IMG/VR virus record: IMGVR_UViG_3300042310_001117
Span: 1-64,000 of that record
DNA from: a virus
Length of the DNA: 64,000 bases
Strand: one strand, 5' to 3'
Part shown: piece after piece, positions 8,109 through 50,593 of the stretch
How the letters are laid out: each line of letters opens with the position of its first letter
How positions within the stretch are numbered: position 1 is the stretch's first letter
The notes under the pieces: model-generated
Told to the model about the DNA's origin: nothing
The model's database searches: none
The model's input: only the letters and a program-made list of their open reading frames with translations
Translations under genes and position numbers: made by a program

Positions 8109-10033
8109 ATTCATTTTCTGATTGGCTATATTTAAAAGAAGCATTTCAAAGTTATTTTTTATTTGGACTATGCACACGTCCACTAAACGAAAACACAGAT
8201 GCTAATCCATCTAGTGGAGAAGTATGTGTTAAAACTCCAATCAGTGCTTATCTTCGTGAAATAGAATTTATCAAAGCTTTTGCTCAAACAAATGCCGACC
8301 AAATGGCACAAGTTCTTATGTTTAGTCCACTTACTGCGAATGTAAGTTTTAGTGCTCATTGGGACAATTTCCCGATTATAATGAATATTTTAAAAACATT
8401 ATTTCCTGATAAAATCTCAAAAGAAAATATCATGAAAACATCTCTTAAAAACATACCACTAGACATAAAGGGAACAGGAGATGACAGTAGAAAAACAATT
8501 TATGACGAGTGGCCAAATGATCCTGCTGAAATACTTTCAGCAATATTCCACACTTTAAATGTTGAAGACGCAAAGGTTCTTGAGACTGTCGCTGGATGGA
8601 AATATGATACTATTGTTCATATTTGGAACAATAGACACGAACTATATGAAAGATTAATGGCTGCTAAGAATGATGATGATGAAACATTGATTCGTATATT
8701 AGCCATGATACCCGGAGCAGGGCCAGTTAAGGCTGGTTTTATGGCACAACTAATATTCGGTAGAATTGGTTGTATAGATACTCATAATGTTGATATATAT
8801 AGAAAAGTTTTTCCAGACTTAGTCAGTGAAATAGACCCAGAACTATGGAACATTGATAAAAAATTTACAAAAAAAGATATAAAAATGGGACTGGATGTTC
8901 CAAGCAAAGCAGTAAAGCCAATAAGAGATTATCTTGGAACAATTAATAAATTAGCAAAAAGAAATATTGGTAGCCAACAATTATGGGATGTTTGGGTTGA
9001 TTTCGTGGCTAATTTTTACAAAATGAATGCTTCTGTAAATAAACCCGGTGGACCTTACGCTCAAATGGGAGCGGCTCTTGACCCCAATAGTCCTGAATAT
9101 GCAATGATGCAAGGCATGAAAATCCCCAAAACCCAGAAAAACAGAAAATGGGAGGTTCCTTTGGCTGTAGGATCTCCAGAGGGAGGAGGAGCAAGTCTTA
9201 CTCACATATTAGCGGCAAAAAAACCAGAAGAAATGCTCAGACAATTACAAAGACATGTTGATCCATCTACAAAAGAACCAGAAGATTGGGCGAGATCGGT
9301 AAATCTCAGAGGAGACTTGCCAAGAGCAGTAAAATATGGATTCACAACGGCACTTTCACCAGAAGGAATTAATACAGATAAATTCCAAGACATTATCGGA
9401 CACCATGTTCGTAGAGCCAGTGGCGTTAAAGTAGATCCACAAATTAGAAGAGAAATTGATGCTATTTATCAATTGCCAAAACCAAGAAGCTTAAAACGCA
9501 ACAAAATAATTTCTTTGCCTGAATCTTACAGCGAAATAAGTCGCAAAGCGTCAAATATGGATGTAATAAAAAAATTAAAAGAAAACTTTTTAGTGAATTC
9601 TAAGATGTCAAACATTTATCTGAACGCAACTGAAAATCCATCCATTAGAAAAGAACTTAAAAGTGATAGCTTTTTTTCTGGCTATGAGAAAATGATTACA
9701 CTTATAGGATCAGACGCAGCAACCAGCTTGGCCTTATTTGAATTTTTACATGAGCTTTCCAATGACAGGGAAGAATGTAAACTCAGAAGATTAAAGGAAA
9801 TTATTGAAAATCTTTTGACAATTTCTAAAGAATCATTCAAAAGCTCATTGGACAAAAAGATTTCTTTTAGCTCAACTCATGATGATTGGATCAAATACGC
9901 CAGAGACAATAAGTTTAAATCATTAATATATTTTTACTTGTCACAAATTTCAGATGCCCTTGTCGAAAATGAACATGCTAAAAAGATATCTGAAGATATA
10001 AAAGTTAAATTAAAAATACTTTTAGAAATTTGA
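8102..10033 (+). CDS. Large HhH-domain protein with capsid-targeting-like N-terminus
   Basis: 643 residues. The leader MLNSFSDWLYLKEAF fits the shared N-terminal pattern. Around residues 200-225, MIPGAGPVKAGFMAQLIFGRIGCIDTHNVDIY looks like the helix-hairpin-helix plus catalytic-Asp region of HhH-GPD DNA glycosylases (PGxGPxxA ... DTHN). The middle is Gly/Pro-rich (PGGPYAQMGAALDP). The C-terminal 170 residues are helical and charged. DNA binding or base excision is possible; a virion-carried protein is also possible. Translation is probably coupled to the glycosyltransferase upstream. Confidence 0.6.
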   Translation: MLNSFSDWLYLKEAFQSYFLFGLCTRPLNENTDANPSSGEVCVKTPISAYLREIEFIKAFAQTNADQMAQVLMFSPLTANVSFSAHWDNFPIIMNILKTLFPDKISKENIMKTSLKNIPLDIKGTGDDSRKTIYDEWPNDPAEILSAIFHTLNVEDAKVLETVAGWKYDTIVHIWNNRHELYERLMAAKNDDDETLIRILAMIPGAGPVKAGFMAQLIFGRIGCIDTHNVDIYRKVFPDLVSEIDPELWNIDKKFTKKDIKMGLDVPSKAVKPIRDYLGTINKLAKRNIGSQQLWDVWVDFVANFYKMNASVNKPGGPYAQMGAALDPNSPEYAMMQGMKIPKTQKNRKWEVPLAVGSPEGGGASLTHILAAKKPEEMLRQLQRHVDPSTKEPEDWARSVNLRGDLPRAVKYGFTTALSPEGINTDKFQDIIGHHVRRASGVKVDPQIRREIDAIYQLPKPRSLKRNKIISLPESYSEISRKASNMDVIKKLKENFLVNSKMSNIYLNATENPSIRKELKSDSFFSGYEKMITLIGSDAATSLALFEFLHELSNDREECKLRRLKEIIENLLTISKESFKSSLDKKISFSSTHDDWIKYARDNKFKSLIYFYLSQISDALVENEHAKKISEDIKVKLKILLEI

Positions 10034-41785: not shown

Positions 41786-42319
41786 CTAAATTAATTCTTT
41801 CATATTGTACAAATCAAAATCTAAAAATTCTTGCCAAGACTTTTTAGCATAGCCAGTTTTATTGTGAACTTCATTAACCCAATCTAAAACATTATTCCAT
41901 CCTTGTCCATAATTACCAAATATTTCCTCATCCTTTTCAATGTCTCGTAAAAACCAATAAACAGCTTTGCCAGCATGTGGAGTTTTCTGCGGATATTGAT
42001 CACCACAATAACGAATTTCAACACCTTGTAATGTTAAACTGTCAATATGATTGACAATTCCAGCATAGCCAAGAGGAACAATAACATATTCTCCAATATC
42101 AACCAAATCACCTTTTTTCTTCATATTAGCTGCGAATTTATATGAATTGAAAAAATATGTGCATTCATCAGCAATAGAATTTCTTTTGACCATAATGCCA
42201 CTAATTGGCAAATATTCATCTTTTTCAATTTTTCTTTTAGCAAAAAGACCTTTCCCCGCCGTCTTTATGGTTGATTCCTTGATGTAAAATCTATCGTCAT
42301 TTTCTTCAAAAATAATCAT
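41786..42319 (-). CDS. SET-domain methyltransferase
   Basis: 177 residues. STIKTAGKGLFAKRKIEKDE is the SET-N GxG region, GYAGIVNHIDS contains the NH motif near the SAM site, and YWFLRDIEKDEEIFGNYGQGW has the GEE(I/L)xxxYG-type catalytic Tyr block. Compact with no pre- or post-SET zinc clusters. Substrates of bacterial and viral SET proteins include histones and ribosomal proteins; here it is unknown. Start overlaps the next leftward gene by one base. Confidence 0.75.
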   Translation of the reverse strand: MIIFEENDDRFYIKESTIKTAGKGLFAKRKIEKDEYLPISGIMVKRNSIADECTYFFNSYKFAANMKKKGDLVDIGEYVIVPLGYAGIVNHIDSLTLQGVEIRYCGDQYPQKTPHAGKAVYWFLRDIEKDEEIFGNYGQGWNNVLDWVNEVHNKTGYAKKSWQEFLDFDLYNMKELI

Positions 42320-45775: not shown

Positions 45776-46097
45776 TGGGCCTCCTGAGACTTGAACTCAG
45801 AACCGAACGATTATGCTTACCACTACAACTTTCGTTGCCCCTTTCGGGTTTGTGGTCTGGACTATACCTTCCCTTTCGGGTCTGCCGTCTAGTCTCTACA
45901 CCTTCCCGATTTCTCAGGCTTGGCTCGGTATTCCCATTTTACAGGGTTCACCGAATTTGACAGATTCTACTAATAGCTTCCACATAATTATATGAAAACA
46001 ATTAGCAACCCTATAGAAGTCAACCATGCAAGATTTAACTTGTTTAGGTTGCCTTCCTTTCTAAGTCGTTTGCTCTAACCAGTTGAGCTAGAGGCCC
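45776..46097 (-). tRNA. tRNA-Ile2(CAU) with group I intron
   Basis: 5' exon GGGCCTC-TA-GCTC-AACTGGTTA-GAGC-A-AACGACT (46097-46064); 3' exon CATAA-TCGTT-CGGTT-CTGAG-TTCAAGT-CTCAG-GAGGCCC-A (45815-45776). Joined, the anticodon loop is CTCATAA (anticodon CAT) on a 5-bp stem. The body closely resembles tRNA-Ile(CAU) of E. coli (GACTCATAATC), whose C34 becomes lysidine to read AUA, so Ile2 is preferred over Met. CCA is not encoded. The 248-base insertion lies between U33 and C34. Confidence 0.9.
45816..46063 (-). ncRNA. Group I intron (IC3-like) in tRNA-Ile2(CAU)
   Basis: 248 bases, without an internal ORF. Core elements are plain on the minus strand: AAATTCGGTGAACCC and ACCGAGCCAAGCC (P3-P4-P6 side), R element TGTAGAGACTAGACGGCA (45882-45899), S element AAGGTATAGTCC (45859-45870). 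GAAA-capped hairpins CCCGAAAGGG (twice) and CAACGAAAGTTG give P8/P9-type arms. The last intron base is G and the preceding exon base is U. The core is strikingly like the Azoarcus tRNA-Ile intron, from memory. The internal guide pairing is short and not resolved by eye. Confidence 0.9.
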
Positions 46098-49662: not shown

Positions 49663-50451
49663 ATGCCAACATGCAAGAAGTGTCAAGCTAATTTCCCCAA
49701 TCGCATCAAAATAGATGGTAAAGAAAAAAATCTCGGCAACAGAAGTTATTGTCTTGATTGCTCGCCATATGGGGAACACAATACCAAAAAATTAGAAACA
49801 GGAAAAGCAAAGCAAATAATAGAAAATAATGAAATAAAAAGAAAATGTATTAAATGTAATGAATATAAATGTGTCAATTATTTTCACAAGATAAAGGGAA
49901 AAAGAAAATATTATTCTTATTGCAAGGTTTGTTTGTATGAAATACAAAAAAATAGATGGTTAGATCGTAAAATGGAAGCAATAAAATTAATGGGAGGAAA
50001 GTGTGTTATTTGTGGATATTGCAAAAACTATGCGGCAATGGAATTTCACCATTTAGATCCATCAGTTAAAGAAATGACATGGGTAAAAGCAAGAGAAATG
50101 AAGTGGAATAAAACTATTGAAGAACTTAAAAAATGTGTTCTTCTTTGTGCCAATTGTCATCGAGAAACACACAATCCAGATGCATCATTGATACAGACAA
50201 GAGAAGCCAACCCATTGTTAACTAATACTTTGAAACCAACAGGAAAATGTCCAAATTGTCAAACTGATGTCTACAACACGAAACATTGCTCTGTTCAATG
50301 TGCTGCTGCAAGTAAAAGAAAAGTTGATCGTCCAACAAGAGATGAATTAAAAAAACTTTTAGAAAAACACAATTTTTCACAATTGGGAATAATGTTTGGA
50401 GTTACTGATAGTTCCATAAGAAAATGGGTTAAATTTTATGATCTAAAATAA
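49663..50451 (+). CDS. HNH homing-type endonuclease with zinc ribbons
   Basis: 262 residues. Zinc ribbon 1: MPTCKKCQANF ... CLDC; ribbon 2: CIKCNEYKC ... CKVC; HNH core: CVICGYCKNYAAMEFHHLDP ... CVLLCANCHRETHNP. The C-terminus adds CPNCQTDVY and a helix-turn-helix (EKHNFSQLGIMFGVTDSSIRKW). Such architecture is typical of free-standing HNH homing endonucleases. Its stop codon directly abuts the 3' end of the tRNA-Arg gene on the other strand. It may target that tRNA locus. Confidence 0.85.
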   Translation: MPTCKKCQANFPNRIKIDGKEKNLGNRSYCLDCSPYGEHNTKKLETGKAKQIIENNEIKRKCIKCNEYKCVNYFHKIKGKRKYYSYCKVCLYEIQKNRWLDRKMEAIKLMGGKCVICGYCKNYAAMEFHHLDPSVKEMTWVKAREMKWNKTIEELKKCVLLCANCHRETHNPDASLIQTREANPLLTNTLKPTGKCPNCQTDVYNTKHCSVQCAAASKRKVDRPTRDELKKLLEKHNFSQLGIMFGVTDSSIRKWVKFYDLK

Positions 50452-50532
50452 TACCGCTGGCGGGAGTCGAACCCACATGGCTTTCGCCGTTGCTTTAGAA
50501 GAGCAATCCAGTTCCATTTCTGGGTCAGCGGC
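50452..50532 (-). tRNA. tRNA-Arg(UCU) with an extended variable arm
   Basis: Leftward: acceptor GCCGCTG / CAGCGGT (one G-U), D-arm CCAG-AAATGGAA-CTGG, anticodon arm TTGCT-CTTCTAA-AGCAA (anticodon TCT), a variable region CGGCGAAAGCCAT folding as GGC-GAAA-GCC, T-arm GTGGG-TTCGACT-CCCGC, discriminator A, no CCA. A class II-like variable arm is not expected on tRNA-Arg, so charging identity should be checked. It reads AGA. Confidence 0.8.
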
Positions 50533-50593
50533 AATACATTCAATTTTACAAAGAAGTGTTGGCCATGTCAATTGAATGTGGTTATAATTTTTC

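Follow-up and report, generated by a model that had tools for sequence, protein, structure and literature searches.

Does a phage-like contig encode a tRNA-Ile2(CAU) whose anticodon loop is interrupted by a group I intron, and how does such an intron relate to those of bacterial tRNA genes? We addressed this question in the first 64,000 nucleotides (referred to here as the window) of the IMG/VR record IMGVR_UViG_3300042310_001117, which is 65,736 bases long in full. A sequence-only reading of the window had proposed a group I intron of 248 bases between U33 and C34. We consider it very likely that the locus is a phage tRNA-Ile2(CAU) gene with an ORF-less, bacterial-tRNA-type group I intron of 248 nt at U33|C34, which would splice to yield an AUA-reading tRNA.

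The interrupted gene and its splice junction

The gene and its parts are located as follows.

45776..46097, minus strand: whole interrupted tRNA-Ile2(CAU) gene, with identical ends from ARAGORN with introns allowed
46064..46097, minus strand: 5' exon, 34 nt, last base U33; the joined exons fold as a tRNA
45816..46063, minus strand: group I intron, 248 nt, last base G, placed by RF00028, covariation and reading frames
45776..45815, minus strand: 3' exon, 40 nt, first base C34, CCA not encoded

When joined, the exons form a cloverleaf in ARAGORN in which every stem is paired, the loop is CUCAUAA and the anticodon is CAU. ARAGORN labels this product tRNA-Met(cat). We assign it to Ile2 rather than Met because it contains C4-G69 and C5-G68, which we take to be determinants for TilS, and because of its likeness to the bacterial genes described below; this likeness and the intact CAU cloverleaf agree with the identity first proposed.

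The split gene is absent from the default output of ARAGORN, in which the intron option is off. With that option, the program reports a tRNA-Ser(AGA) with a 228-nt intron, whose ends fall exactly at 45776-46097 while its splice points differ. That reading is the program's own output, but its intron would terminate inside the P9 hairpins, whereas removing 248 nt gives a plain cloverleaf, and both the CAU loop and a 30-row alignment (see below) agree with U33|C34; we regard a tRNA-Ser(AGA) as scarcely credible. A splitter purpose-made for this analysis, with scoring built to favor U before the intron and G last, gave 7.5 for U33|C34 and 6.0 for the 228-nt split of ARAGORN. The 248-base insertion at U33|C34 is therefore borne out by splitter, alignment and the fold of the joined exons. 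In the frame listing of the 248-nt intron we found no endonuclease gene, the longest open stretch being 48 codons, and thus the window intron is not a homing intron in the sense of one with an endonuclease gene inside.

Group I fold and proposed splicing

The Rfam model RF00028 (Intron_gpI) matched 46004..45835 across all 253 model positions with 42.5 bits (E 1.4e-9, 501 bases searched). The covariance-model check thus argues for a group I intron, though the match falls below the curated gathering score of 50, and the intron is unlisted in a gathering-level Rfam scan of the whole window. The GIR1 model gave a weak match (17.4 bits, E 0.085). Low scores are common at this site: among the bacterial U33|C34 introns listed as matching RF00028, 13 of 14 fall under 50 and one passes at 53.3 bits. 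Since only one of 14 bacterial members reaches the gathering score, default Rfam annotation overlooks the U33|C34 class. The RNA of the 322-nt gene folds with a z of -5.83, and none of 100 dinucleotide shuffles was equally low; its minimum-energy fold differs from the group I fold.

We aligned 30 rows, i.e., the window, one sister phage, and 28 bacterial genes. A group I structure (P1, P1 extension, P2-P9, P7 pseudoknot) pairs 95.7% of cells in this alignment, a value biased upward in that the structure was drawn with the alignment in view. Both-sided changes occur at 42 of its 79 pairs (a total that includes the tRNA stems), also in the P3/P7 pseudoknot. None of 500 shuffles matches the structure on any of five measures, and versions slid along the alignment pair at most 42.9%. 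Unaided, RNAalifold found compensatory change at 38 of 82 pairs by a method that cannot draw P7 together with P3. The parts of the window intron in this structure are the following.

46012..46063, minus strand: P1 extension hairpin, intron nt 1-52, two covarying helices
46005..46011, minus strand: guide GGGUUGC, intron nt 53-59, the same in all 30 rows; its GGUU would pair with G30-U33 and place a G across from U33
45969..46006, minus strand: P2 hairpin, a helix of the 30-row structure
45959..45964, minus strand: P3 5' strand, 4 of 6 pairs with both-sided changes
45881..45886, minus strand: P3 3' strand, partner of the P3 5' strand
45890..45894, minus strand: P7 5' strand, within the R segment, one varying pair and four invariant
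45860..45864, minus strand: P7 3' strand, within the S segment, partner of the P7 5' strand
45819..45856, minus strand: P9 and two GAAA-capped side hairpins, three helices of the 30-row structure

Besides P3, both-sided changes were found at 1 of 5 pairs in P7, 1 of 5 in P4, 4 of 4 in the P6 arm and 2 of 3 in P8, and 97.5-100% of the cells of these five helices are paired. The varying pair of P7 is A-U in 17 rows, G-C in 12, and C-G in one. All core helices are intact in the window row, and the near-canonical P, Q, R, and S segments and GAAA-capped hairpins noted previously are present both by eye and in the alignment. U33 and the intron-final G are likewise invariant in 30 of 30 rows, so that the expected U before and G at the end of the intron hold throughout, with U33 opposite a guide G by a pairing inferred from sequence. 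P1 itself (G30.U, A31-U, C32-G, U33.G) never varies, and its pairs are read from sequence rather than from covariation. An alternative P1 just after the splice site (C32-G8, U33.G7) was rejected; it is missing from the second phage copy (L016/L096), while GGGUUGC is invariant. The two helices of the P1 extension pair 76% and 86% of cells, with both-sided changes at 13 of 15 pairs, and the window phage has one G.A mismatch and one bulge there.

The window intron very probably splices and is active. By the steps general to group I introns, GGGUUGC would first pair with G30-U33 of the precursor to form P1 at the expense of the anticodon stem; a guanosine in P7 would attack after U33; and the freed U33 would attack after the final intron G, which would restore the 7-base loop CUCAUAA. 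TilS of the host would then convert C34 to lysidine and CCA would be added, and the mature tRNA would read AUA. Since a search for TilS (PF01171) found it in none of three records of this phage group, the host must presumably supply the enzyme, and CCA as well. An AUA-reading tRNA makes sense given that 39 ORFs, picked by hand from 106, use AUA for 27.1% of their 1049 Ile codons, even if a tRNA-Ile(UAU) of the phage would read this codon too. A role for the intron in protecting the anticodon loop against anticodon nucleases was also considered and dropped for want of evidence.

Phage context and the sister copy

Is the contig phage DNA? A chromosomal or plasmid origin, with an ordinary bacterial tRNA intron, would fit with its many bacterial-looking genes (ClpX-like, sigma factors, glycosyltransferases), with the terminase family PF03237 not being found in its record, and with the lack of any head or tail family among the 30 of 106 listed window ORFs scanned with PHROGs, which instead yielded methyltransferases, HNH endonucleases, a sigma factor, and ClpX-like and clamp-loader-like ATPases. 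However, the source is a virus record of IMG/VR, and a second contig (G034) is 99.99% identical to it over 16,746 bases and extends approximately 18 kb beyond its end. This extension encodes phrog_1645 (a head-and-packaging virion structural protein, 1.4e-99), PhoH, IF3, and DnaJ among the 10 of 30 ORFs scanned. In addition, terminase-bearing phages with tRNA introns do exist (PF03237 is found in 7 of 49 intron-bearing records, which reach 385 kb). Bacterial or plasmid DNA is thus very unlikely, and the virion structural protein on the near-identical longer contig agrees with the DNA having been described as phage-like. Five further viral contigs represent the same population as the window. 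The IF3 (translation initiation factor) and DnaJ genes of this phage group lie beyond the window, at 8505-9113 and 10984-12051 of L095.

Counting pieces longer than 200 bases, a sister phage (contig G010) and the window can be aligned across 42,776 bases, with an average identity of 78.0%. Judged by its 2-kb stretch at L016, this contig had appeared unrelated to the window phage, a view overturned by the whole-contig alignment. The piece with the tRNA gene is 97.9% identical over 329 bases, the highest among the listed pieces. In the sister phage, the interrupted gene adjoins a tRNA-Ile(UAU) gene, and the position that matches its place in the window spans 51 bases versus approximately 2.7 kb in the window. 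The tRNA gene reads as a cassette that has moved. Between the two copies, 7 of 322 bases differ, and five of these belong to the 5' strand of the P1 extension (intron nt 3-12). Given so few differences against a genome average of 78% over 42.8 kb, we infer that the tRNA gene is being kept.

A decayed intron or tRNA, from which no mature tRNA is made, would be consistent with the sub-threshold Rfam score, with the weak and bulged P1 extension, and with a second would-be AUA reader, a tRNA-Ile(UAU), that ARAGORN finds in the same genome. The tRNA stems all pair once the intron is removed, the core helices are intact in the window, and the gene is far better preserved than the genomes around it; all three argue against a dead copy, which we consider unlikely. 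Elsewhere in the window, at 49663-50533, an HNH endonuclease gene (phrog_2255, plus strand) lies end to end with a tRNA-Arg(UCU) gene (minus strand), and it is possible that this gene is a free-standing homing endonuclease.

Related introns in bacteria and phages

Scanning bacterial genome contigs for the 18-base 3' junction returned 44 stretches, 33 of which hold full split genes. Four of these (L107, L111, L117, and L131) were dropped as mischained, the 5' half having been taken from an intact upstream tRNA (ARAGORN gives L107 and L111 introns of 250 and 254 nt), and an acidobacterial gene with a 642-nt intron (L101) was left out for length, which leaves 28 genes with an intron of 240-260 nt. 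The other 11 of 44 comprise nine without a readable T arm, one without a 5' half and one with a low score. By record title, 24 of the 28 are betaproteobacterial (Accumulibacter, Polynucleobacter, Limnohabitans, and others), one is from Stutzerimonas, one is from a Pirellulales MAG, and two are titled just Proteobacteria or Pseudomonadota. The junction is sparse, occurring in 4 of 300 genomes from the order to which a Limnohabitans genome belongs; two of the four (G055 and G049) were known beforehand.

The window intron is 62-72% identical to the 28. It shares with these 28 tRNA-Ile2(CAU) introns, mostly betaproteobacterial, the U33|C34 site, which is not peculiar to this phage, the P1 extension, the guide, and the core; it differs from the 28 in residing in a phage, in a P2 that is 7 bases longer and in shorter P5 and P6 arms. 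By its site, its length of approximately 250 nt, its P1 extension and GGGUUGC, the window intron is, as judged from sequence, a phage member of the bacterial tRNA-Ile2 U33|C34 class. Ile2 group I introns in Acidovorax and Burkholderia appear in the accessible part of the tRNAscan-SE 2.0 paper, which does not state an insertion site there (PMC8450103), and the accessible part of a tRNA review places most bacterial tRNA introns at 37/38 (PMC4033280). One Limnohabitans contig (G055:C2, 183-215 kb) holds three group I introns (L144, L162, and L159) within 32 kb, two of them in tRNA-Ile2 at different sites (CT^CATAA and CTCAT^AA).

The intron of the Azoarcus pre-tRNA-Ile(CAU), which we take to be a subgroup IC3 intron of approximately 205 nt inserted after U36, presumably has core segments like those of the window intron, a candidate for the same subgroup. 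Bearing on this candidate assignment, the window core matches phage tRNA-Leu(UAA) introns, with which it stands in one common tree. Could the window intron be of the Azoarcus type, with its site misplaced in our reading? The tRNA is identical in kind and the cores are alike, but introns of the Azoarcus-type class split CTCAT^AA and end in ACAAACCGG or near it, whereas the window splits CU^CAUAA and ends in GUAGUGGUAAG; moreover, the nine CTCAT^AA introns are separate in the tree (98). We hold this alternative to be highly improbable, and the site is indeed, as had been suspected, different from the Azoarcus position (CT^CATAA versus CTCAT^AA). The CTCAT^AA class, which fits the Azoarcus site, has members in phages and one Limnohabitans genome, which stand apart from the window in the tree.

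Introns of tRNA-Leu(UAA), which occur in cyanobacteria and plastids and also in phages, resemble the window intron in the core and, in many, in the 3' end GUAGUGGUAAG, but they are inserted at U34|A35 and have a short P1 loop versus the 52-nt hairpin of the window. Phage protein-gene introns (HTVC120P capsid, cr116_1 DNA polymerase, and RHph_N3_13 nrdA), which were inferred from split annotations, have a similar core, while the gene that they interrupt is protein-coding. A quick-method tree of 79 introns (197 columns, midpoint root) groups its rows by insertion site far above shuffles; it leaves 36 of its 76 inner branches open and gives no direction of transfer. The window and its sister L096 are joined (99) outside the main bacterial set, beside the Pirellulales gene (L120) and between the bacterial Ile2 and Leu sets. 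That the window intron is a jumped tRNA-Leu intron is an idea that this tree, with so many open branches and a midpoint root, does not settle.

We found that a 17-base core pattern, which was derived from the window intron and thus biases the mix toward similar introns, occurs in 70 viral stretches of IMG/VR, 52 of which lie inside split tRNA genes called by ARAGORN; five of the 52 are the window population, one is the sister L016, and three (L024, L041, and L052) have a doubtful 687-nt split. As a control, ARAGORN with introns called 54 of 72 real motif windows and 0 of 360 dinucleotide shuffles. In a set of 23 viral stretches, rows were dropped as follows: seven of the 16 new ones lack a T arm beside the motif, and three are cut or without a 5' half. 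Counting two from named records, the distinct viral introns comprise 26 in Leu(UAA) at U34|A35, eight in Ile2 at U36|A37, six besides the window in Ile2 at U33|C34, two in Lys, two in Leu at U33|U34, and one doubtful case. Two viral introns at U33|C34 (L080 and L081) seem, by eye, to have a short P1 in place of the extension, and the site may therefore have been hit more than once.

Such introns are also present in cultured phages. In Agrobacterium phage Atu_ph07 (MF403008.1, L073 2383-2744), ARAGORN reports an intron of 278 nt in a tRNA-Leu(UAA), and in Gordonia phage Daredevil (NC_048021.1, L167, approximately 41820-42131) one of 238 nt in a tRNA-Lys(UUU); the Atu_ph07 intron is unannotated at the match. 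A hypothetical protein is annotated across part of the split tRNA-Leu of Atu_ph07, and the split tRNA-Lys of Daredevil, where the match has no annotated feature, lies approximately 570 bases from an integrase gene. In LR756501 (735 kb) and LR756511 (595 kb), ARAGORN splits a tRNA-Leu by 205 nt and approximately 700 nt, respectively, each unannotated at the match. With introns allowed, ARAGORN found no split tRNA in HTVC120P, cr116_1, pYD6-A, RHph_N3_13, or KT997847; there the core matches are intergenic by annotation, and several of the flanking genes are each half of a single protein.

The sequence-only reading had called a group I intron in a phage tRNA unusual. This stands for the literature, which we searched without most subscription journals and in which we found no paper on one, but not for the sequence data, where tRNA introns in phages are not rare (they occur in numerous viral contigs and in two or more cultured phages). 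The word 'intron' is absent from the accessible parts of the Atu_ph07 paper, which reports 33 tRNAs (PMC6102473), and of a huge-phage paper (PMC7162821). In its accessible part, a 2014 review places phage introns all in protein genes (Hausner 2014, PMC3984707), a statement that the gene described here and its relatives directly contradict. Our data also indicate a detection gap: neither tRNA finders run without introns nor Rfam with its gathering cut-off detects the class, so that counts of phage tRNAs come out too low. With cultured phages at hand, the spread of tRNA introns among bacteria becomes testable. We tentatively suggest, as a possibility somewhat short of even, that phages both maintain a lasting reservoir of tRNA group I introns and carry them about, with whole intron-bearing tRNA genes changing place within phage genomes and passing between phages and bacteria that belong to different phyla. 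If true, such a reservoir would account for the scattered bacterial distribution of tRNA introns.
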